Positions 24,470-36,571 of a DNA stretch of 64,000 nt are shown piece by piece. The first letter of the stretch is position 1. Every line of letters begins with the position of its first letter. Both the position numbers and the translations under genes were made by a program. A model generated the notes under the pieces. That model ran no database searches. It was given only the letters and a program-made list of their open reading frames with translations, and was not told where the DNA came from. Origin of the DNA: Acidobacterium sp. (GTDB taxonomy: Bacteria; Acidobacteriota; Terriglobia; Terriglobales; Acidobacteriaceae); assembly GCA_003131625.1 (NCBI GenBank), contig PKVY01000148.1, positions 62,001 to 126,000 of the forward strand, in the 5' to 3' direction.

Positions 24470-24588
24470 CGGAATCAGGCTTTTCGACAGGGCGCAAGTA
24501 TTCCACAGAAGGGTCATACCGGCACCTTTGACGCGGATGTAACAATCACAACGGGCTGACGCCGGACTTCGTGCCTGACGGAAGATGT

Positions 24589-24594
24589 CATATC
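24589..24594 (+). promoter_or_regulatory. -10 box of the glgP promoter
   Basis: TATCCT at 24589-24594 with a weak TTCGTG 17 bases upstream. It would give a leader of about 40 bases to ATG 24642, supporting that start over ATG 24585. Confidence 0.35.
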
Positions 24595-24641
24595 CTGAAA
24601 GGACAGTTGCACCTGGGCAGGCCGGAGAAAACGTTTTAGCG

Positions 24642-26423
24642 ATGCGTTTTATCAATCGTTCCCAGTACCTATCCCCGGAGGAACCAGGCGAAGGCGGCAT
24701 GGTCGCCTATTTCTCCATGGAAATCGCGGTGATGCCGGAGTTCCCCACGTACAGCGGGGGTCTCGGCGTGCTGGCCGGGGATACGCTCCGCGCGGCCGCC
24801 GATATGGGCTTGCCGCTGGCTGCGGTGACCCTGGCTCATCGCAAGGGCTACTTCCGCCAGCGTCTGGATCCAACCGGCGTTCAAACCGAGGAGCCCCAGC
24901 CGTGGAGTCCAGAAACCATTCTCGTGGCGGAAGAGCCGGTCGTCAGCGTCACCATCGAAGGCCGTCCTGTCGCGGTCCGCGCGTGGCGCTACGACATGGA
25001 GGGGGTCACCGGGCACCGCATCCCCGTCTATTTTCTCGATACCAACCTGGAACAGAACGACCCGACCGATCGCACGCTGACCGATCACCTGTATGGCGGC
25101 GAGGCGGACTACCGCCTGCGCCAGGAGGCAATCCTCGGCATCGGCGGCGCGCGCCTGCTGCGCGCTCTCGAATACGAGCCCTCCGTTTACCACATGAACG
25201 AGGGTCACGCCGCGCTGCTCACGATTCCTGTACTGGAGCAGGAACTGCACGGCGCCGGTCTGCAGACGGCCACCGAGCGCAACATTGAAGCTGTGCGCCG
25301 CCGCTGCGTCTTCACGACGCACACGCCCGTGCCGGCGGGGCACGATCGCTTCTCCGGCGAGCAGGCTTATCGCATCCTTGGCACGGAACGCGCGGGCATG
25401 CTGGAGCATTTCGGCTGTTTCCACGACGGACTGCTCAACATGACCTACGTTGCCCTGCGCTTCTCGCGCTTCGTCAACGGCGTGGCCATGCAGCATGGCA
25501 AAGTCTCACGGCAGATGTTTCCCGAGTACACCATTGACGCCATCACCAACGGTGTCCACGCCGGCACCTGGACTGCGCCCTCCGTCCAGGCGATCTTCGA
25601 TCGCCATCTTCCGCGCTGGCGCCAGGACAATGTCACGCTGCGCTACGCCATCGACATCCCGGAAAATGAAATTGTCGAAGCCCATGCCGCGTCCAAGCAG
25701 GCCCTCATCGAGGCCGTGAAGGCAGCCACCGGCGTGGAGATGCGGCCCGAAGTTTTCACCATTGGCTTCGCTCGCCGCGCCGCTACTTATAAGCGTGCCG
25801 ACCTCCTCTTTACCGATCCTGAGCGGCTGGTGCGGATGGCGGAGAAATTCGGCGGCATACAGGTTGTTTACGCGGGCAAGGCCCATCCTGCCGACGACCC
25901 GGGCAAGGCGAAAATTCGCCGCGTCATCGAGCTGGCGAAGGAACTGCGCGAAACTCCGCTCAGCATCGTCTACCTCGAAAATTACGAGTGGAAACTCGGT
26001 GCGCTGCTCACCGGCGGCGTCGATCTGTGGCTCAATACCCCACGGCGTCCTTATGAGGCCTCCGGAACCAGCGGGATGAAAGCCGCGCTCAACGGGGTAC
26101 CCAGCCTCAGCATTCTCGATGGTTGGTGGATTGAAGGCTGGATCGAAGGTGTCACCGGCTGGGCCATTGACGACCACGACGACGAGCCGGGGGAGACCAA
26201 ATCTCTCTACGAGCACCTGGAGAAGTTGATCCTGCCGCTTTTCTGCAAAGACACGGGACAGTGGCGGCGCATCATGCGCTCCACGATTGCCCTCAACGGA
26301 TCCTTCTTCAACACCCAGCGCATGCTGGAGCAGTACGTCATCAATGCTTACTTCCCGGAGCGGCGCGTGGAGAAGATCTCCGAATCGCCTCAGCCCGATC
26401 TGGAGAAGACCGTCGCCGGATAG
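24642..26423 (+). CDS. glgP: Alpha-glucan (glycogen/maltodextrin) phosphorylase
   Basis: 593 residues, the short GT35-type alpha-glucan phosphorylase. It releases glucose-1-phosphate from alpha-1,4-glucans. The N-terminus has VAYFSMEIAVMPEFPTYSGG. The PLP site EASGTSGMKAALNGVPSLS carries Lys480. Other landmarks are CVFTTHTPVPAGHDRF and ITNGVHAGTWTAPSVQ. The start at ATG 24642 (MRFINRSQYL) is chosen from family alignment and promoter position; ATG 24585 is also in frame. It follows galK on the same strand with a 172-base gap, so it is probably separately transcribed. Confidence 0.9.
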   Translation: MRFINRSQYLSPEEPGEGGMVAYFSMEIAVMPEFPTYSGGLGVLAGDTLRAAADMGLPLAAVTLAHRKGYFRQRLDPTGVQTEEPQPWSPETILVAEEPVVSVTIEGRPVAVRAWRYDMEGVTGHRIPVYFLDTNLEQNDPTDRTLTDHLYGGEADYRLRQEAILGIGGARLLRALEYEPSVYHMNEGHAALLTIPVLEQELHGAGLQTATERNIEAVRRRCVFTTHTPVPAGHDRFSGEQAYRILGTERAGMLEHFGCFHDGLLNMTYVALRFSRFVNGVAMQHGKVSRQMFPEYTIDAITNGVHAGTWTAPSVQAIFDRHLPRWRQDNVTLRYAIDIPENEIVEAHAASKQALIEAVKAATGVEMRPEVFTIGFARRAATYKRADLLFTDPERLVRMAEKFGGIQVVYAGKAHPADDPGKAKIRRVIELAKELRETPLSIVYLENYEWKLGALLTGGVDLWLNTPRRPYEASGTSGMKAALNGVPSLSILDGWWIEGWIEGVTGWAIDDHDDEPGETKSLYEHLEKLILPLFCKDTGQWRRIMRSTIALNGSFFNTQRMLEQYVINAYFPERRVEKISESPQPDLEKTVAG

Positions 26424-26616: not shown

Positions 26617-28092
26617 ATGGGAGAGATTCCTTTGAACCAGTCATCCGTGCAGCAGCTGGCGCCGGAAGTCTCGCGGCGGCCGCTCTGCGTCGATCTGGAT
26701 GGCACCCTGGTCAAAAGTGACACGCTGATGGACTCTCTGCTGCTTCTGGTGCGCAGCCGGCCCCTGGCGGCGCTGCAGCTTCCGTTCTGGGTCCTCCGCG
26801 GCAAAGCCGCCTTCAAAGCCGAAGTCGGTGCTCGCGTCTCCCTCGACGTACGCCATCTGCCTTACAACCGCTCCGTCGTCGAATACCTCGAAATCGAGCG
26901 TGGGGAGGGTCGCAAGCTGTATCTGGCGACCGGCGCGGATCAGCAGCTGGCTGCCCGCATTGCCGACCACCTGGGCTTGTTCGACGGCGTGCTCGCCAGC
27001 GACGGAAAAACGAATCTGACCGCCGGCAACAAGCTCGACGGCCTCCGCAAGACTTTCGGCGATGCGGGCTACGACTACATCGGCAACGCCGGGCCCGACC
27101 TTCCCCTTCTGCAGCATGCGGGAACAGCGATGATCGCGAATCCGGCCCCCGCGCTGCGCGCTCGTCTGCGCTCGCGCGGCGTGGCCGTCGGCCGGGAATT
27201 CCGGGATCGCATCGCGCCCGCAAAGGCTGCCCTGAAAGCGATTCGGCTGCATCAGTGGGCGAAGAATGTGCTGATCTTTCTGCCCATGCTGCTCGCGCAC
27301 GTTCTCCGCGCCAGCGTGTTCGGCGATGCGGCCATCGCCTTTGTCAGTTTTAGTCTCTGCGCCTCGTCCACCTACATCGCCAACGATCTGCTCGACATTG
27401 AATCCGATCGCCGTCACCCCACCAAGCGCGCCCGGCCTTTTGCCTCCGGCGATTTGTCGGTGATGACCGGCGTGCTCATCAGCGTCGCTTTCCTGGCTGG
27501 AGGCGTCGCGATCGCCGCCGCATTCCTTCCCCGCGGCTTTCTGCTGTGGCTGTTTATCTATCTGGTGGCGACGCTCTCCTATTCGCTGGTTCTCAAGCGG
27601 GTCGTGCTGGTCGATGTCATTCTGCTCTCCGGCTTATATACCGTGCGCCTGCTGGCGGGTGCCTCCGCCACCAGGGTCGGCATCTCTCCGTGGCTGGCGG
27701 CTTTTTCTGTGTTCCTGTTCCTCAGTCTCGCCATGGTCAAGCGATTCAGCGAGCTGCAGAATGCGCGCGCGCGGGGGCAGGCCCTCGCCAACGGCCGCGG
27801 CTACCTGCTCGGCGACATCGAGCAACTCCGGAGTTTCGGAACTTCCAGCGCCTACGCCGCCGTTGTGGTCTTTTCGTTCTATATCGGCGCTCACGACGTC
27901 ACCAGCCTTTACATCCACTCCAACCGGTTGTGGCTCATCACGCCGCTAATGATCTTCTGGCTGAGCCGTGTCTGGCTGCTGGCCTCGCGCGGCCAACTCG
28001 ACGAAGACCCGGTCATTTTTGCCGTTACCGATCCCCTGAGCCTGCTGACCGGCCTCGCGGTTGCGGTGATTGCAGCCCTTGCAGCTCTGTAG
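26617..28092 (+). CDS. HAD phosphatase-UbiA fusion (polyprenyl-phosphate phosphoribosyltransferase)
   Basis: 491 residues. The N-terminal HAD-IB-like phosphatase has the nucleophile motif DLDGT (Asp26, Asp28), LYLATGADQ as motif II and YIGNAGPDLPLL as motif IV, so it looks active. From about residue 210 a UbiA domain follows, with RLHQWAKNVLIFLPMLLAH and the Asp motif ANDLLDIESDRRHPTKRARP (Asn256-Asp264), then seven or eight helices. The UbiA part matches Rv3806c-type enzymes that join PRPP to polyprenyl phosphate. The HAD part would then remove the 5-phosphate. The start may be ATG 26617 or TTG 26632, the latter with GGGAGAG well placed. Confidence 0.8.
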   Translation: MGEIPLNQSSVQQLAPEVSRRPLCVDLDGTLVKSDTLMDSLLLLVRSRPLAALQLPFWVLRGKAAFKAEVGARVSLDVRHLPYNRSVVEYLEIERGEGRKLYLATGADQQLAARIADHLGLFDGVLASDGKTNLTAGNKLDGLRKTFGDAGYDYIGNAGPDLPLLQHAGTAMIANPAPALRARLRSRGVAVGREFRDRIAPAKAALKAIRLHQWAKNVLIFLPMLLAHVLRASVFGDAAIAFVSFSLCASSTYIANDLLDIESDRRHPTKRARPFASGDLSVMTGVLISVAFLAGGVAIAAAFLPRGFLLWLFIYLVATLSYSLVLKRVVLVDVILLSGLYTVRLLAGASATRVGISPWLAAFSVFLFLSLAMVKRFSELQNARARGQALANGRGYLLGDIEQLRSFGTSSAYAAVVVFSFYIGAHDVTSLYIHSNRLWLITPLMIFWLSRVWLLASRGQLDEDPVIFAVTDPLSLLTGLAVAVIAALAAL

Positions 28093-28112
28093 CGTTGAGA
28101 AAGCGACGATCC

Positions 28113-29459
28113 ATGGGTAAGTCAGACAGCAAGACGGAACAAACCCCACAATTCGAATCCTGGGGTCGCTATCCGCAGTTCCATGCCGATGTTGTTCCGC
28201 TTCACTGGGCCACCGACTTTCCGCTCAAGCCGCCCCCGGGCACCCCGCAATTGCCCGTCGGGCTGGGCCGCAGCTACGGCGACGTCTGTCTGCTGGAGAA
28301 TGGCCTCCTGCTCCAAACCGCGGGAATGGACCGGCTCCTTCATTTCGACCCGGCGACCGGTATGCTGCGCTGCGAGGCGGGCGTTTCGCTCCAGCAGATT
28401 CTCGACTTTGCTGTCCCCCGCGGCTTCTTTCTGCCCGTTACGCCCGGAACGAAATATGTAACGGTGGGCGGCGCCATTGCCAACGACATTCACGGCAAGA
28501 ACCATCACGTTGCCGGTACCTTTGGCCGGCATGTCCTGCGCTTCGAACTGGTGCGCTCCGACGGTACCCGCTTTGTTTGCAGCCCCATTGAAAACCCCGA
28601 ATGGTTTGCCGCCACCATCGGCGGCATGGGGCTCACCGGACTGATGACCTGGGCCGAAATTCACCTTCGCCCCATCGTTTCCCGCAGGATTGACTATCGC
28701 GGCGACAAGTTTCACGGCATCGACGAGTTCTTCGCGCTCTCCCACGCCGCGTCCAGCGAATACTCGGTGGCCTGGATCGACTGCGTTTCCACCGGCCGCA
28801 ACTTCGCGCGCGGCATCTTCATGCAGGGCGATCACTCCGAGACGCCAGGACCCCTCACCAGGAGCAAAGAGCCTAAGCTCACGTTTCCCTTCGACCTGCC
28901 CGCGTTCGCTCTCAACCGCTTTTCGATGGCAGCCTTCAACTCCCTCTACTTCCACAAGCAGCTGGGTCAGCAAAAGGTCGGCCCTGTCGATTACGAGCCG
29001 TTCTTCTATCCCCTCGATGCGGTCCAGCACTGGAATCGCATGTATGGGAAGCATGGCCTGGTCCAGTTCCAGAACGTCCTCCCGCTCGAAAGCGGCCGCG
29101 AGGGCATGCTGGAAATCCTCAGGGCCATCACCAAATCCGGACTCGCCTCCTTCCTGGCTGTCATTAAGTTCTTCGGAGACGTTCCTTCCGTCGGCACGAT
29201 GTCCTTCCCGGTGCCTGGCGTGATGCTGGCTCTCGATTTCCCGATTCGCCGCCATGTCACCTTCGAGCTTGTCGATCGGCTCGCGCGCATCACCCTCGAG
29301 CATGGCGGCCGCATGTATTCCGCTAAAGACGCCCGCATGACCGCCGCTCAGTTCCAGGCCTTTTATCCGCAGTGGCGGGACTTCGCCCGCTACGTCGATC
29401 CCGGCTTCGACTCCGCTTTCTGGCAACGCGTCACCGGACGGAGGCCTCTCGATGGCTGA
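28113..29459 (+). CDS. dprE1: DprE1-like polyprenylphosphoryl-ribose 2'-oxidase
   Basis: 448 residues, FAD-linked oxidase of the VAO fold. The FAD-binding loop is LPVGLGRSYGDVCLLENG, followed by TPGTKYVTVGGAIANDIHGK. The C-terminal part aligns closely with mycobacterial DprE1: LAVIKFFGDVPSVGTMSFP and HGGRMYSAKDAR, which keeps the lysine equivalent to Lys418. It should oxidise the 2'-OH of polyprenyl-phospho-ribose. The benzothiazinone-target cysteine (Cys387 in M. tuberculosis) is replaced by Ala373. It starts 21 bases after the HAD-UbiA stop, and its end overlaps dprE2 by 8 bases. Confidence 0.85.
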   Translation: MGKSDSKTEQTPQFESWGRYPQFHADVVPLHWATDFPLKPPPGTPQLPVGLGRSYGDVCLLENGLLLQTAGMDRLLHFDPATGMLRCEAGVSLQQILDFAVPRGFFLPVTPGTKYVTVGGAIANDIHGKNHHVAGTFGRHVLRFELVRSDGTRFVCSPIENPEWFAATIGGMGLTGLMTWAEIHLRPIVSRRIDYRGDKFHGIDEFFALSHAASSEYSVAWIDCVSTGRNFARGIFMQGDHSETPGPLTRSKEPKLTFPFDLPAFALNRFSMAAFNSLYFHKQLGQQKVGPVDYEPFFYPLDAVQHWNRMYGKHGLVQFQNVLPLESGREGMLEILRAITKSGLASFLAVIKFFGDVPSVGTMSFPVPGVMLALDFPIRRHVTFELVDRLARITLEHGGRMYSAKDARMTAAQFQAFYPQWRDFARYVDPGFDSAFWQRVTGRRPLDG

Positions 29460-30216
29460 TCAACCCGCGGTCGCGGCCCCAAGACGCGTCCTCGCGCTCG
29501 GCGCTACCTCCGCCATCGCCGAGGCCACTCTCCGCCTGCTCGCCGAACAGCACGCGGCCTTCTTTCTTGTGGGGCGCAATACCCAAAGGCTGGCTGCTGT
29601 GCGCAACGATCTGCTCACCCGAGGTGCAACTGCGGCCACGACCTTTACCGCCGATCTCGACAACACCGCCGCCCACCCCGCCATGCTGGCGCACGCGGCT
29701 ACAGCTCTGGGAGGAATTGATCTGGCCTTCCTTGCCCACGGTGTCCTCGGCGATCAGTCGGAGGCGGAAAAAAACTATGCCGCTGCCGAAGCCATTCTGC
29801 GCACCAACTTTCTGTCGGCCGTTTCGCTGGTGACCTGGCTCGCCAGCTACTTTGAGTCTGAGCGCCGCGGCGCCATCGCCGTCATCTCCTCGGTCGCCGG
29901 TGATCGCGGCCGTAAGAGCAACTACGTCTACGGCGCCTCCAAGGGCGGCCTCGACATCTTTCTCGACGGCGTGCGCAACCGCATCGACCGCGCCGGCGTG
30001 CACGTTCTCACCATCAAGCCGGGATTTGTCGCCACGCCGATGACCGCGCACCTCCCCAAAAATGCACTTTTCGCCGAACCGGCCCGAGTCGCAAAACACA
30101 TCGTCCGGGCCATCGAGAAACGCAAAGACGTGGCCTACGTCCCGCCCTTTTGGGCCCTGATCATGCTGGTGGTTCGCAACATTCCCAGGCGCATTTTCAA
30201 GAAAATGAATATGTAG
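29452..30216 (+). CDS. dprE2: DprE2-like keto-reductase (SDR)
   Basis: 254 residues, short-chain dehydrogenase. The cofactor loop is LALGATSAIAEATLRLLA, the catalytic serine lies in AVISSVAGDRG, and the YxxxK pair is Tyr160 and Lys164 in YGASKGG. The C-terminal PPFWALIMLVVRNIPRRIF resembles the membrane-contacting tail of DprE2. It would reduce the 2'-keto intermediate to polyprenyl-phospho-arabinose with NAD(P)H. The ATGGCTGA overlap with dprE1 implies coupled translation and joint function, as the two are partners in mycobacteria. Confidence 0.82.
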   Translation: MADQPAVAAPRRVLALGATSAIAEATLRLLAEQHAAFFLVGRNTQRLAAVRNDLLTRGATAATTFTADLDNTAAHPAMLAHAATALGGIDLAFLAHGVLGDQSEAEKNYAAAEAILRTNFLSAVSLVTWLASYFESERRGAIAVISSVAGDRGRKSNYVYGASKGGLDIFLDGVRNRIDRAGVHVLTIKPGFVATPMTAHLPKNALFAEPARVAKHIVRAIEKRKDVAYVPPFWALIMLVVRNIPRRIFKKMNM

Positions 30217-30512: not shown

Positions 30513-33500
30513 ATGTGGATAGTCCGCCTCGCGCTGCGACGGCCCTACACCTTTGCCGTGGTCGCGCTCCTGTTGATGGTTCTCGGGCCGCTGGCCATCG
30601 TCAATATGCCGGTGGACATTTTCCCCAACATCAACATTCCCGTCGTTACCATGCTCTGGAGTTACACGGGCTTCTCGCCGGAACAGATGGCGAGCCGTAT
30701 CGTCACGCTCAGCGAGCGCTCCCTCACCACCACCGTCAACGACATCGAGCACACCGAGTCGAATTCGCTGAACGGCATCGCCGTCGTCAAGATCTTTTTC
30801 CAGCCGGGCGTCAACATCGGTAATGCGGTGGCTCAGGTTACGGCCATCGCGCAGGCCCAGGTCCGCCAGCTGCCTCCCGGAACCACGCCGCCGCTGGTCA
30901 TCCAGTACAACGCCTCCAGCGTCCCCATCATCCAGCTTGGACTTTCCGGGCAAGGCCTCTCGGAAATGCAGCTCAACGATATCGGTCTGAACTTCATTCG
31001 CACCCAGCTCGTCACCGTGCCCGGCGCAGGTATTCCCTATCCCTATGGCGGCAAGCAGCGCCAGGTCCAGGTCGACCTGAACCTCCCCGCGCTGCAGTCC
31101 AAAGGCCTCTCGCCTGCCGACGTGGTCAACACCATCGGCGCGCAGAACCTCATCCTGCCTTCCGGAACCATGAAGATTGGCCCCTTCGAATATCAGCTTG
31201 AGACCAACAGCGCCCCAACCACCATTCAGGGACTGAACGATCTGCCCATCCGTCAGGTGAACGGCGCAATGGTGTACATCCACGACGTTGCTCACGTCCG
31301 CAACGGCTTCCCCCCACAGACCAACATCGTTCGCGTGGATGGTCAGCGCGCTGCGCTGCTCTCCGTCATCAAGACCGGCAATGCCTCCACGCTCAACATC
31401 GTAAAAGGCATCGTCGCCAAGGCCGACAGTCTCAAATCCCAGCTCCCGCCGCAGCTCAAAATTACGCCTCTCGCGGATCAGTCCATCTTCGTGCGTGCCT
31501 CTATCGACGGCGTCGTACACGAAGGCATCATCGCCGCCTGCCTCACGGCGGTCATGATCCTCATCTTTCTCGGCAGCTGGCGCAGCACGCTCATCGTCGC
31601 CGTTTCCATTCCGCTCTCGATCCTCACCTCGCTGCTCACACTGAGCGCGTTGGGCGAGACCATCAACATCATGACCCTCGGCGGCCTGGCCCTGGCGGTC
31701 GGCATTCTCGTCGATGACGCCACCGTCGAAATCGAGAACATCAACCGCAACCTCGAGCAGGGCAAAGCCATCGAGCAGGCCATTCTCGACGGCGCCGCGC
31801 AGATCGCGGTTCCCGCCCTTGTCGCCACCATCTCGATCTGCATCGTCTTTGTGCCCATGTTCTTCCTGGGGGGCGTGGCCAAATATCTGTTCGTGCCCCT
31901 GGCCGAGGCCGTGGTCTTTGCCATGCTTGCCTCCTACCTGCTTTCGCGCACCGTGGTCCCCACCATGGCGAAATATCTCCTCTGCGAGCACGACCCCCAG
32001 GAAGGCGAACGGAAGCGGCAGAGCCCCAACCCCTTCACGCGTTTTCAGCTCGTTTTCGAAAGCCGCTTCGAGAAATTTCGCCATGGCTACCGGCGCATCC
32101 TCGAGCTCTGCATTGAGCACGCTGGCGTCTTCATCATCCTGTTCTTCGTCCTCAGCATGGGCTCTGCGGCCCTGCTCTACCCGTTTCTTGGCGAAGATTT
32201 TTTCCCCACCGTTGACAGCGGCCAGTTCAAGCTGCACATCCGGACGCGCACCGGAACGCGCATTGAGGACACCGCTGCTCTGTGCGACCGCATCGACAAC
32301 ACCATCCGCCAGATCATTCCGAAGAACGAACTGGTCACCATCATCGATAACATCGGTCTGCCCTACTCCAGCATCAACCTGTCTTATTCGAACTCCGCCC
32401 CCGTCGGCCCCGGCGACGCCGATATCCAGGTCTCTCTCGCCGAGCATCACCATCCGACCGAAGGTTACGTGGGCCGACTGCGCGAAGAACTGCCGCGACG
32501 TTTTCCCGGCACCGAGTTTTACACGCTGCCCGTCGACATGGTGACGCAGATCCTCAACTTCGGCCTTCCCGCGCCCATCGACATTCAGATTGTCGGGCCG
32601 AACCAGCGGGGCAATCTTGAGTTCGCACAAAACCTGCTCAACCGGATCAAATACGTTCCCGGCACGGCCGACATGCGCATTCAGCAGCCCTTTGACAACC
32701 CGCGGCTGCAGATCAATGTGAACCGCACCATGGCGCAAAGCACCGGCCTGGCGCAGCGCGACATCGCGCAGAGTCTCCTCGTGGCCACCAGCGGCAGCTT
32801 CCAAACCTCGCCGACCTTCTACCTCGACCCGCAAAACGGCGTCGAATACAGCATCGCCGTCCAGGCGCCGCAGTATGGGCTGGATACCATGCAGGATCTG
32901 CGCAATATCGCCGTCACGCCGGGCAGCGGCGCATCTGCCAGCGGCGGGGCGGGTCCCACGCTCCCCAACAGCGGCTCCTGGGGCGCGGGCGCACCGCCTT
33001 CCTCGGGCCCGGTCGGCGGCCAGCCTATTCAGATCCTCGGCAACGTCGCCGCCGTCGAGCCCGGACAGGAACCAGCCACGGTTACGCATTACAACATCAC
33101 GCCGGTCATCGACATTTACGGCAACGTCGTCGGTACCGATCTGGCCAGTGTCAGCAAAGGTATCCAGCAAATCGTCGACCAACAGCGGTCCAATCTCCCG
33201 CGCGGCTCTCACATCGAGGTGCGCGGGCAGGTGCGGACCATGCGCACTTCGTTTGCCGGCCTGTTCGGTGGCCTCATCTTCTCGATTCTTCTCGTCTATT
33301 TGCTCATTGTTGTGAACTTCCAGTCGTGGCTCGATCCCTTCATCATTGTCTGCGCGCTTCCTGCCGCCATCTCCGGCATCGTCTGGTTCCTGTTCCTCAC
33401 CCACACGCGCCTTAGCGTGCCCGCGCTCACCGGCGCCATCATGTGCATGGGAGTTGCGACTTCGAACTCGATCCTGGTGATCAGTTTCGCCCGGGAGCAG

Positions 33501-33812
33501 CTCGAAATGACCGTCGGTGACGCCTCGCTGTCCGCGCTCAACGCCGGCTTTGTCCGCTTCCGCCCCGTCCTCATGACCGCGCTCGCCATGATCCTCGGCA
33601 TGATTCCCATGTCCCTCGGCCTTGGCTCCGGCGGCGAACAAAACGCGCCCCTCGGACGCGCCGTCATCGGCGGCCTGCTCTTTGCCACCGTATCGACCCT
33701 GTTCTTCGTCCCAACCATTTTCAGCGTGCTGCACGGACGTCTCGAGCGCCGCCACAGTGAGCGGGAAGCACGTAAACACGCCCACAAACACCAGTTTGTG
33801 ACCGGGAGCTAA
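30513..33812 (+). CDS. RND efflux transporter, inner-membrane pump
   Basis: 1099 residues, AcrB-like hydrophobe/amphiphile RND pump with twelve membrane helices. Helix 1 starts at residue 1 (MWIVRLALRRPYTFAVVALL). The helix-4 aspartate pair is Asp401-Asp402 in GILVDDATVEIEN. In helix 10 the AcrB lysine (Lys940) position is Ser984, in TSNSILVISFA. A Gly/Ser/Pro-rich insertion occupies about residues 805-838 in the second periplasmic loop. AGGAG lies 13 bases before the ATG. It is the first gene of a pump-adaptor-outer membrane factor operon; substrates are unknown. Confidence 0.9.
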   Translation: MWIVRLALRRPYTFAVVALLLMVLGPLAIVNMPVDIFPNINIPVVTMLWSYTGFSPEQMASRIVTLSERSLTTTVNDIEHTESNSLNGIAVVKIFFQPGVNIGNAVAQVTAIAQAQVRQLPPGTTPPLVIQYNASSVPIIQLGLSGQGLSEMQLNDIGLNFIRTQLVTVPGAGIPYPYGGKQRQVQVDLNLPALQSKGLSPADVVNTIGAQNLILPSGTMKIGPFEYQLETNSAPTTIQGLNDLPIRQVNGAMVYIHDVAHVRNGFPPQTNIVRVDGQRAALLSVIKTGNASTLNIVKGIVAKADSLKSQLPPQLKITPLADQSIFVRASIDGVVHEGIIAACLTAVMILIFLGSWRSTLIVAVSIPLSILTSLLTLSALGETINIMTLGGLALAVGILVDDATVEIENINRNLEQGKAIEQAILDGAAQIAVPALVATISICIVFVPMFFLGGVAKYLFVPLAEAVVFAMLASYLLSRTVVPTMAKYLLCEHDPQEGERKRQSPNPFTRFQLVFESRFEKFRHGYRRILELCIEHAGVFIILFFVLSMGSAALLYPFLGEDFFPTVDSGQFKLHIRTRTGTRIEDTAALCDRIDNTIRQIIPKNELVTIIDNIGLPYSSINLSYSNSAPVGPGDADIQVSLAEHHHPTEGYVGRLREELPRRFPGTEFYTLPVDMVTQILNFGLPAPIDIQIVGPNQRGNLEFAQNLLNRIKYVPGTADMRIQQPFDNPRLQINVNRTMAQSTGLAQRDIAQSLLVATSGSFQTSPTFYLDPQNGVEYSIAVQAPQYGLDTMQDLRNIAVTPGSGASASGGAGPTLPNSGSWGAGAPPSSGPVGGQPIQILGNVAAVEPGQEPATVTHYNITPVIDIYGNVVGTDLASVSKGIQQIVDQQRSNLPRGSHIEVRGQVRTMRTSFAGLFGGLIFSILLVYLLIVVNFQSWLDPFIIVCALPAAISGIVWFLFLTHTRLSVPALTGAIMCMGVATSNSILVISFAREQLEMTVGDASLSALNAGFVRFRPVLMTALAMILGMIPMSLGLGSGGEQNAPLGRAVIGGLLFATVSTLFFVPTIFSVLHGRLERRHSEREARKHAHKHQFVTGS

Positions 33813-33815
33813 CGT

Positions 33816-35114
33816 ATGACCCAACCAAAACAGCCGCACCCAAACCCGACCCCGAACCAGCACGGCCCCGAAACCCAAGGTTATGAAGACGACCGTCCGC
33901 CGATTTCAGGACGCAAGGCGATTCTGGTGCTCACCGTCGTGTTCGTTGTGGCTGCGGTCGTGGCCGTTGCGGAGCTCATCCCGCGCCTGCGTGCGGAGAA
34001 GGGCCTGAAGACACGCACCGGCGAGCTGGCTGTGGCGAACGTCACCGTCGAAGAGCCCAAAGTCGGTGCACCCAGCCAGGAAATCGTTTTGCCCGGCAAC
34101 ATGTTTGCCTATGTCGACTCGCCCATCTACGCCCGCACCGATGGCTATCTCGAGAAGTGGTACTTCGACATCGGCGCGCAGGTGCGCAAGGGGCAGTTGC
34201 TCGCCACCATCGCCAGCCCCGAAGTCGATCAGCAGCTCGCCCAGGCCAAAGCCGACCTGGCCACCGCTGAAGCCAATGCTGGTTACGCAAAGCAGCAGGC
34301 CAGCCGTTACACCGATCTGCTCGCGAGCAACGCAGTCGCCAAGCAGGACACGGAGAACTTCGTTACTCAGGCAGCGTCGACGAACATGCAGGTGAAGTCG
34401 GCCCAGGCCAACGTCCAGCGGATCGAGCAGCTCACCGGCTTCGAAAGCGTTTACGCACCCTTTGACGGCGTCGTCACCGCACGCGACGTCGATATCGGCA
34501 CGCTGATCAATGCCGGCGCGGGCACATCCGGCGGACGCGAGATGTTCCACATGGATGACGAGCACATCATGCGCGTTTATGTGAACGTGCCCCAGGTCGA
34601 TTCCCCCTCCTGCACGCCGGGAACGCCCGCCGACCTGACCCTGGAGCAATATCCAGGCCGCCGCTTCCACGGCAGAGTTGTGCGCACCGCGCGCGCCATC
34701 GATCCCGCCTCCCGCACGCTGCTCGTCGAAGTCGACGTGCCGAATCGCGACGGCTCGCTGGTCCCCGGCGCCTACACCGAAGTCCACTTCCAGCTCAACG
34801 TCGTCCGCCAGACCCTGATTTTGCCCGTTTCGACCTTGCTTTTCCGTCAAGAGGGCCTGCGTGTTGTCACCGTAATTCACGGCAAGGACGGCGACACTGC
34901 AAGACTCGTGGCGATCACGATCGGGCAGGACGACGGCCGGGTCGTGCAGGTAATTGAGGGCCTGCAGCCGAACGACGAAGTCGTCCGGAATCCTCCTGAC
35001 TCGATCGTGGACGGAGAAAAAGTCCGTGTCGTTGCGCCCAACAACGGCGGTGTTCCAGGAGCTCCGCCGCCGGAGGAAAACCAGGGTAGTCAGGGTCCGG
35101 AGGGCAGTGAATGA
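33816..35114 (+). CDS. RND periplasmic adaptor (membrane fusion protein)
   Basis: 432 residues. A cytoplasmic Pro/Asn-rich N-terminus precedes one membrane anchor (AILVLTVVFVVAAVVAVAELI). The lipoyl half-motifs are DGYLEKWYFDIGAQVRKGQLL and FDGVVTARDVDIGTLI, flanking a helical hairpin (QLAQAKADLATAEANAGYAK). Beta-barrel and membrane-proximal domains follow. The Pro/Glu-rich tail is disordered. It should link the pump to the outer-membrane channel. It begins 3 bases after the pump stop and overlaps the next gene by 4 bases, so all three are one operon. Confidence 0.9.
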   Translation: MTQPKQPHPNPTPNQHGPETQGYEDDRPPISGRKAILVLTVVFVVAAVVAVAELIPRLRAEKGLKTRTGELAVANVTVEEPKVGAPSQEIVLPGNMFAYVDSPIYARTDGYLEKWYFDIGAQVRKGQLLATIASPEVDQQLAQAKADLATAEANAGYAKQQASRYTDLLASNAVAKQDTENFVTQAASTNMQVKSAQANVQRIEQLTGFESVYAPFDGVVTARDVDIGTLINAGAGTSGGREMFHMDDEHIMRVYVNVPQVDSPSCTPGTPADLTLEQYPGRRFHGRVVRTARAIDPASRTLLVEVDVPNRDGSLVPGAYTEVHFQLNVVRQTLILPVSTLLFRQEGLRVVTVIHGKDGDTARLVAITIGQDDGRVVQVIEGLQPNDEVVRNPPDSIVDGEKVRVVAPNNGGVPGAPPPEENQGSQGPEGSE

Positions 35115-36571
35115 TCCGCACCCGCCTATGGGCGCTTGCGTCCTCCGCAACAACGCTGCTGCTCGTCGGCTGCACGGTGGGCCCCAACTACCATCGTCCG
35201 GATGCGGCCACGGCTCCCGCCTGGAAAGAGAACTCCATACCGCCGCCCAACCCACCCAACGGCACATGGAAACAGGCCGAGCCCAGCGACGGAACGTTGC
35301 GCGGTCAGTGGTGGGATCTCTATGGCGATCCACAGCTAAGCGCGCTGGAGGCCAAAGTCGCTGTCTCCAACCAGACGCTGCGCGCGGCGATGGAGCAGTA
35401 TTTTCAGGCGCGCGAGCAGGTGCGTGTCGCGCGTTCGCAGTATTACCCCACCCTCGCTGCCGGGCCGTCGATCGGTCGCACCCGCGAGTCCAATAACCAG
35501 CCCAACACGGTAAAGGGGATCTCCGACTACCAGTTCAACACCTTCAGCATTGCCGGCCAGGCACAGTGGGAGCCGGACCTTTGGGGCCAGGTCCGTCGCA
35601 CGGTCGAACAGACGCGCGCGAACGCGCAGGCTTCTGCCGCCCTGCTTGCCAGCGTGGAACTCAGCGTGCGCGCCGAGCTCGCTGTCGACTATTTCCAGTT
35701 GCGCGGCCTCGATTCCCAAAAGGAGTTGCTCGATAACACCGTCAAGTCCTACGAGGACTATCTGCAACTGACACAGATCCGTTTTAAGGGCGGCGTCGCT
35801 ACTGAATCCGACGTGGCCCAGGCCCAGACCCAGCTCGAAACCACCCGCGCCCAGGACATCGATGTCGGCGTTGCTCGTGCCCAATATGAACACGCCATCG
35901 CCACGCTGGTTGGGACTCCAGCGTCGGTCTTTAGCCTTCCCGCAATGTCCCTCGGCCAGCAGATTCCTCCTATCCCCGTCGGCGTCCCCTCACAACTACT
36001 CGAGCGCCGGCCTGACATCGCCGCCGCCGAGCGCCAGGCCGACGCGGCCAACGCCCAGATTGGCGTCGCCATCGCCGCGTATTACCCCAACATTTCGCTC
36101 ACTGGTACCGGCGGCTTTGAGAGCGGCAACCCCGGCACATGGATTCAGGGCCCGAGCGAGATGTGGTCGCTCGGCGCTTCCGCCGTCGAGCTTCTCTTCG
36201 ATGCGGGCCGCCGCCACGCCATTACCCAAGAGGCGCGCGACGCGTACGAGCAGCAGGTGGCCAATTACCGCCAGACCGTGCTCGCCGCGTTCCAGGATGT
36301 GGAAGACAATCTCGCGGCCATTCGCATCCTCGATCAGGAATCTGCGCAGGAAAATCTGGCTGTCGCGGCCGCCGAGCGTTCGCTGGCCATCAGCACCAAC
36401 CGCTACAAAGGCGGCGTCACCACCTACCTCGAAGTGCTGACCGCGCAGACCGCGCAGCTCTCCGATCAGCGAACCCAGGCCGACATCGCCACGCGCCAGT
36501 TCGTCGCCAGCGTCCAGCTCATCCGTGCCCTGGGGGGCGGCTGGGACACGACCCAGATCCCTAAACTGTAA
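35111..36571 (+). CDS. Outer-membrane efflux lipoprotein (NodT/TolC family)
   Basis: 486 residues. The lipobox is LLVGC with the lipidated Cys near residue 18, followed by TVGPNYHRPDAATAPAWKE, the usual NodT-family opening. Two outer-membrane efflux repeats carry the long helices (SNQTLRAAMEQYFQAREQV and IGVAIAAYYPNISLTGTGG). It forms the trimeric channel of the tripartite pump. The ATG overlaps the adaptor stop (ATGA), indicating coupled translation. The length is normal. Confidence 0.92.
   Translation: MIRTRLWALASSATTLLLVGCTVGPNYHRPDAATAPAWKENSIPPPNPPNGTWKQAEPSDGTLRGQWWDLYGDPQLSALEAKVAVSNQTLRAAMEQYFQAREQVRVARSQYYPTLAAGPSIGRTRESNNQPNTVKGISDYQFNTFSIAGQAQWEPDLWGQVRRTVEQTRANAQASAALLASVELSVRAELAVDYFQLRGLDSQKELLDNTVKSYEDYLQLTQIRFKGGVATESDVAQAQTQLETTRAQDIDVGVARAQYEHAIATLVGTPASVFSLPAMSLGQQIPPIPVGVPSQLLERRPDIAAAERQADAANAQIGVAIAAYYPNISLTGTGGFESGNPGTWIQGPSEMWSLGASAVELLFDAGRRHAITQEARDAYEQQVANYRQTVLAAFQDVEDNLAAIRILDQESAQENLAVAAAERSLAISTNRYKGGVTTYLEVLTAQTAQLSDQRTQADIATRQFVASVQLIRALGGGWDTTQIPKL

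Follow-up and report, generated by a model that had tools for sequence, protein, structure and literature searches.

A three-gene acidobacterial operon predicted to supply a lipid-linked D-arabinofuranose donor

The window analyzed here, a 64,000-nucleotide stretch of a genome placed by its named relatives in the Acidobacteriaceae, carries three tightly packed, co-directional open reading frames (ORFs) that we read, with a probability of roughly 0.87, as an operon for a polyprenyl-phosphate-linked beta-D-arabinofuranose donor that would be used on a surface glycan or glycoprotein. In the predicted route, the UbiA domain of a HAD-UbiA fusion protein would join PRPP to polyprenyl phosphate to give polyprenyl-P-ribose-5-P, and the fused HAD domain would take off the 5'-phosphate to leave polyprenyl-P-ribose. 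A DprE1-like enzyme would then oxidize the lipid-linked ribofuranose at C2, and a DprE2-like enzyme would reduce the ketone to the arabino form, yielding polyprenyl-P-D-arabinofuranose. This donor would be flipped across the membrane and its sugar transferred by a GT-C arabinosyltransferase encoded away from the operon; the carrier lipid, whose length we infer, is probably undecaprenyl. We prefer this reading because of the matches to Rv3806c, DprE1 and DprE2, the catalytic residues (together with the fold for HAD-UbiA) and the co-occurrence of the genes among genomes; against it stand relatives that possess only part of the gene set, the scores of the DprE1-like and DprE2-like proteins under curated cut-offs, the replacement of one ribose-contact residue of Rv3806c and the finding of no flippase or transferase linked to the operon.

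A preliminary description of this DNA had proposed three contiguous, translationally coupled genes, and the ORF listing of the window located them in the order given there (Table 1). Coupling is likely for the DprE1-like and DprE2-like genes given their 8-bp overlap, while 20 bp separate the HAD-UbiA and DprE1-like genes. Translation of HAD-UbiA could start at ATG 26617 or at TTG 26632, the latter preceded by a better ribosome-binding-like sequence (GGAGAG); the choice matters little because the first 16 residues of the predicted model are of low confidence. Consensus searches found no sigma-70-like promoter and no excess of terminator-like sites over shuffled sequences.

Table 1. Positions of the operon genes, their predicted domains and the bordering genes in the window.
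Feature	Position	Strand	Length or residues	Basis or remark
Flanking glycan phosphorylase	24585..26423	+		Left syntenic border of the slot; PF00343 Phosphorylase in a congener copy
Three-gene operon	26617-30216	+		ORF listing
HAD-UbiA fusion, predicted polyprenyl-phosphate phosphoribosyltransferase with its own 5'-phosphatase (PPPRS/PRP type)	26617..28092	+	491 aa	NF006088; Rv3806c 8j8j; AlphaFold fold
HAD phosphatase domain	26674..27210	+	residues 20-198	HAD motif residues
UbiA-fold PRPP-dependent transferase domain, predicted	27217..28089	+	residues 201-491	Pfam UbiA 63.7 bits; fold match
Mg-PRPP motif NDLLDIESDRRHPTKRARP, predicted	27382..27438	+	residues 256-274	Conservation; aligned with Rv3806c motif N73-D81
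DprE1-like FAD oxidase, predicted polyprenyl-P-ribose 2'-oxidase	28113..29459	+	448 aa	PDB DprE1; NF053785
DprE2-like SDR, predicted 2'-keto reductase	29452..30216	+	254 aa	DprE2 21gq_C; NF053786; NF005489
RND efflux transporter, membrane-fusion protein and outer-membrane factor	30513..36571	+		Right syntenic border; ORFs and conserved synteny

With 592 bits against a cut-off of 351, the first protein belongs to the NCBI family NF006088; over its C-terminal half it matched the Mycobacterium tuberculosis Rv3806c structure 8j8j at 3.7e-28. In an AlphaFold model built with 49 homologues (pLDDT 92.2), the UbiA domain superposed on PRPP-bound Rv3806c (8j8j) with a Z score of 29.4 over 283 residues (rmsd 2.5), about 8 Z units ahead of the next-best UbiA protein (Z 21.4). 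The UbiA motif cited in the preliminary description was found at residues 255-274 (ANDLLDIESDRRHPTKRARP); within it the N-D-x-x-D-x3-D Mg/PRPP signature is present, with N256, D257, D260 and D264 invariant in 49 sequences, as are K270 and R273. Alignment to Rv3806c showed that PRPP/Mg residues were kept as K216 (K28 in Rv3806c), N256 (N73), D260 (D77), Y322 (Y138) and K327 (K143), and that Q135, a ribose contact, was replaced by threonine (T319); the roles of these contact residues in Rv3806c have been described (PMC10994848). It is very improbable that the protein is an ordinary quinone- or haem-type UbiA prenyltransferase that happens to lie next to unrelated FAD and SDR enzymes: Pfam gives the operon proteins broad family names only, as such an arrangement would allow, yet by fold the protein comes closest to the PRPP-bound transferase, well ahead of other UbiA folds, the gene is contiguous and co-occurs with DprE1, and the three other UbiA proteins of the genome fell below threshold in the HAD-UbiA search.

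The N-terminal domain of the same protein scored only 23.4 bits against Pfam HAD, under the cut-off of 27, but in the predicted model it superposed on HAD/SerB phosphatases with Z scores of 17.6 (3fvv) and about 15. Its nucleophile region reads D26-L-D28-G-T, and D26, D28, K139 and D161 are invariant, and T105 at least 90% conserved, in 49 homologues. On sequence and model, HAD-UbiA would therefore carry out phosphoribosyl transfer as well as dephosphorylation, and with both in one protein three genes suffice. The count in the preliminary description, which had the donor made "in just three genes", thus holds, although the reason for it, the fused phosphatase, had been missed.

The second protein matched PDB DprE1 structures at about 3e-73 along residues 47-431 and the NCBI equivalog NF053785 at 345 bits, under its cut-off of 500. 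Its predicted catalytic lysine, K405, was kept in 43 of 43 scored orthologues. At A373, which was alanine in all 44 scored, the aligned residue of mycobacterial DprE1 is instead the cysteine attacked by covalent benzothiazinones. For the third protein the best PDB match was DprE2 (21gq_C, 8.1e-37), 20 orders of magnitude ahead of the next (4.1e-16); it scored 201 bits against NF053786, under the cut-off of 250, and 297 bits against NF005489, and its SDR triad S147-Y160-K164 was present in 41/41 scored orthologues. Because both fell under the curated equivalog cut-offs, we call these proteins DprE1-like and DprE2-like. The matches of the three proteins to NF006088, Rv3806c, DprE1 and DprE2, all of which bear out the assignments first proposed, are too strong to be due to chance.

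Among 61 related genomes, DprE1 was found in 17 and HAD-UbiA in 19, with both in 16, DprE1 only in 1, HAD-UbiA only in 3 and neither in 41 (Fisher p 8e-11, uncorrected for relatedness). Across 199 sampled Acidobacteriota, DprE1 occurred in 41, all 41 of which also matched the Rv3806c-type UbiA, a family present in 109 of the 199 (P values again uncorrected for relatedness). Judged by these family matches, the predicted pathway is common within the phylum. When fused and separate forms were assigned by the extent of the family match and a cut-off, the HAD fusion was found in 21 genomes of this sample, DprE1 also being present in 17 of these; almost every other carrier had the UbiA domain alone, so that its phosphatase must be separate. 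When 49 HAD-UbiA proteins were placed on a tree, their linkage to DprE1/E2 changed about 10 times, at least 7 of them on supported branches, a few of the "not linked" labels being contig ends. Edaphobacter/Granulicella-type genomes, for example, carry DprE1-E2 at a different site, next to what reads as the gene for ribosomal protein L20, and some genomes gave no match to DprE1.

Patchy distribution of the operon genes across the family would also be expected if the operon were a non-functional or decaying remnant, and one congener (G003) has lost HAD-UbiA save for a short 5' remnant. We consider such decay extremely unlikely in the source genome, where the three ORFs are intact with their catalytic residues and several congeners hold copies 77-98% identical. 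In G003 itself (L029:9399-11757) DprE1 and DprE2 are retained, the latter with a 24-residue insertion, and the pathway is likely broken. In Acidobacteriaceae ZG23-2 (L096:10013-12317, L153:8983-10359) the usual site holds HAD-UbiA and DprE2 and no DprE1; a distantly related DprE1-like gene (43% identity) is present at another location and is possibly a replacement.

With the mycobacterial decaprenyl-phospho-arabinose pathway (Rv3806c, Rv3807c, DprE1 and DprE2) the predicted donor route shares the transferase fold, most PRPP residues and the oxidase/reductase pair. It differs in its fused HAD phosphatase in place of the Rv3807c type, in its probable undecaprenyl carrier and in having no linked Emb/Aft transferases. 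The fusion itself recurs in the three-component ORF15 system of Citrobacter youngae, in which an N-terminal HAD (PRP) is likewise joined to UbiA (PPPRS); Kelly et al. (2024) found that ORF15 makes polyprenyl-P-ribofuranose from PRPP in vitro and that the HAD aspartate is required for efficient dephosphorylation (PMC11127046). Citrobacter O1 makes ribose and O2 makes xylofuranose through a different SDR, whereas here DprE1 and DprE2, whose homologues mark Araf systems, are linked instead (PMC11127046). Combined with the DprE pair, ORF15 chemistry should give polyprenyl-P-D-arabinofuranose. We regard it as unlikely that the set yields lipid-linked ribofuranose or another pentofuranose such as xylofuranose, with a DprE pair that has shifted to another epimerization or is itself a side activity. 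The Citrobacter O2 route lends that alternative some weight, as do HAD-UbiA genes without any DprE1 in several Acidobacteriaceae (Terracidiphilus gabretensis, Acidicapsa and G028) and those that in Methylococcales and Oxalobacteraceae accompany a GT-C and an EamA-type transporter, again with no DprE. However, DprE1 and DprE2 are both present here and contiguous, their catalytic residues are kept across 41-45 orthologues, and the closest PDB entry to the DprE2-like protein is DprE2 itself.

The arabinofuranose donor route thus remains the best reading, as the preliminary description had proposed, but its novelty outside Actinobacteria does not stand: the pathway is already known from Pseudomonas paraeruginosa pili (PMC12369383), from P. 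syringae and, as a pentofuranose pathway, from Citrobacter (PMC11127046). Pilin D-arabinofuranose in P. paraeruginosa and P. syringae (RGP80 genes, TfpW) likewise involves a Gram-negative lipid-linked D-Araf donor with UbiA and DprE homologues (PMC12369383), although P. aeruginosa PA7 has a separate phosphatase and P. syringae a C-terminal one (PMC11127046), in place of the N-terminal fusion seen here. New here are the repeated changes in linkage of DprE1-E2 to HAD-UbiA and the finding of a different furanose-donor cassette in the same slot. Within the collection of papers searched, none relevant paired DprE1 with Acidobacteria. The predicted operon would extend lipid-linked D-arabinofuranose synthesis to a soil phylum that is abundant but poorly studied, with little-known envelope glycans, and directly predicts D-arabinose in acidobacterial surface polymers; congeners lacking the gene set are natural knock-outs, and fused versus separate phosphatases offer a comparison for pathway evolution.

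No linked flippase or GT-C/arabinosyltransferase was found in the operon flanks of the window or its syntenic relatives, unlike Citrobacter, where a MATE flippase and GT136 are linked (PMC11127046), and Pseudomonas, where TfpW, a dedicated GT-C, is encoded alongside pilin genes (PMC12369383). Beyond the phylum, HAD-UbiA is accompanied by a GT-C and by EamA or LPG_synthase_TM transporters, the company one would expect of a gene for a glycosylation donor. Five such clusters, all without DprE, in Methylococcales and Oxalobacteraceae (L098, L104, L106, L108 and L114), whose transporter is EamA/SMR-like, are probable ribofuranose systems in which a small transporter replaces the MATE flippase. The GT-C genome scan suggested in the preliminary description gave 15 PMT_2 GT-C matches and one LPG_synthase_TM in the source genome, all unlinked to the operon; these candidates come from family searches only and are generic. 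Compared with the GT-Cs that neighbour HAD-UbiA in proteobacteria, those of the source genome showed weak, unspecific similarity, and the single LPG_synthase_TM protein had no evident glycan context, so neither line singled out a candidate. Three GT-Cs (G000 C110:18190, C111:31234 and C142:21198) were common to the DprE-positive G007 and undetected in the DprE-negative G004; because the candidates are many, the contrast is a single one and it depends on PMT_2 detection, none was named as the transferase. The C142:21198 product (L186:8859-10331), a DUF6798-containing multi-TM protein adjoining a GT9 gene, is a candidate arabinosyltransferase; L096, L100 and L117 have homologues of it downstream of the operon, and its structure model is poor (pLDDT 55).

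The phosphorylase gene of the left border (protein cluster glgP) adjoins the operon in most congeners. In two congeners, G001 and G004, all three operon genes are absent and a GT2 and a GT75/RGP NDP-pyranose mutase gene occupy the interval bounded by the phosphorylase and RND genes that border the operon elsewhere (L195:3314-5294 and L194:566-2495, respectively). The GT75 protein belongs to PF03214 and matched MtdL structures at 5.7e-96, and MtdL-type enzymes produce NDP-furanoses (PMC9937993). At this one site, then, one furanose-donor cassette takes the place of another. We tentatively suggest, as a doubtful proposition, that this is a swappable furanose-donor site, occupied mostly by the PRPP-based arabinofuranose set and in these two congeners by the GT2 and MtdL-like GT75 pair (GDP-fuco/galactofuranose type), with the side-chain sugar of one surface glycan being exchanged; that both cassettes feed a single glycan is a guess. 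G051 has the GT75 gene too, at a different location, where the adjoining ORF may be GT2-like. On the right border, dozens of Acidobacteriaceae loci (L057-L101, besides the window) have RND pump genes flanking HAD-UbiA; these genes have no evident role in the arabinose pathway, and their adjacency is probably inherited synteny.
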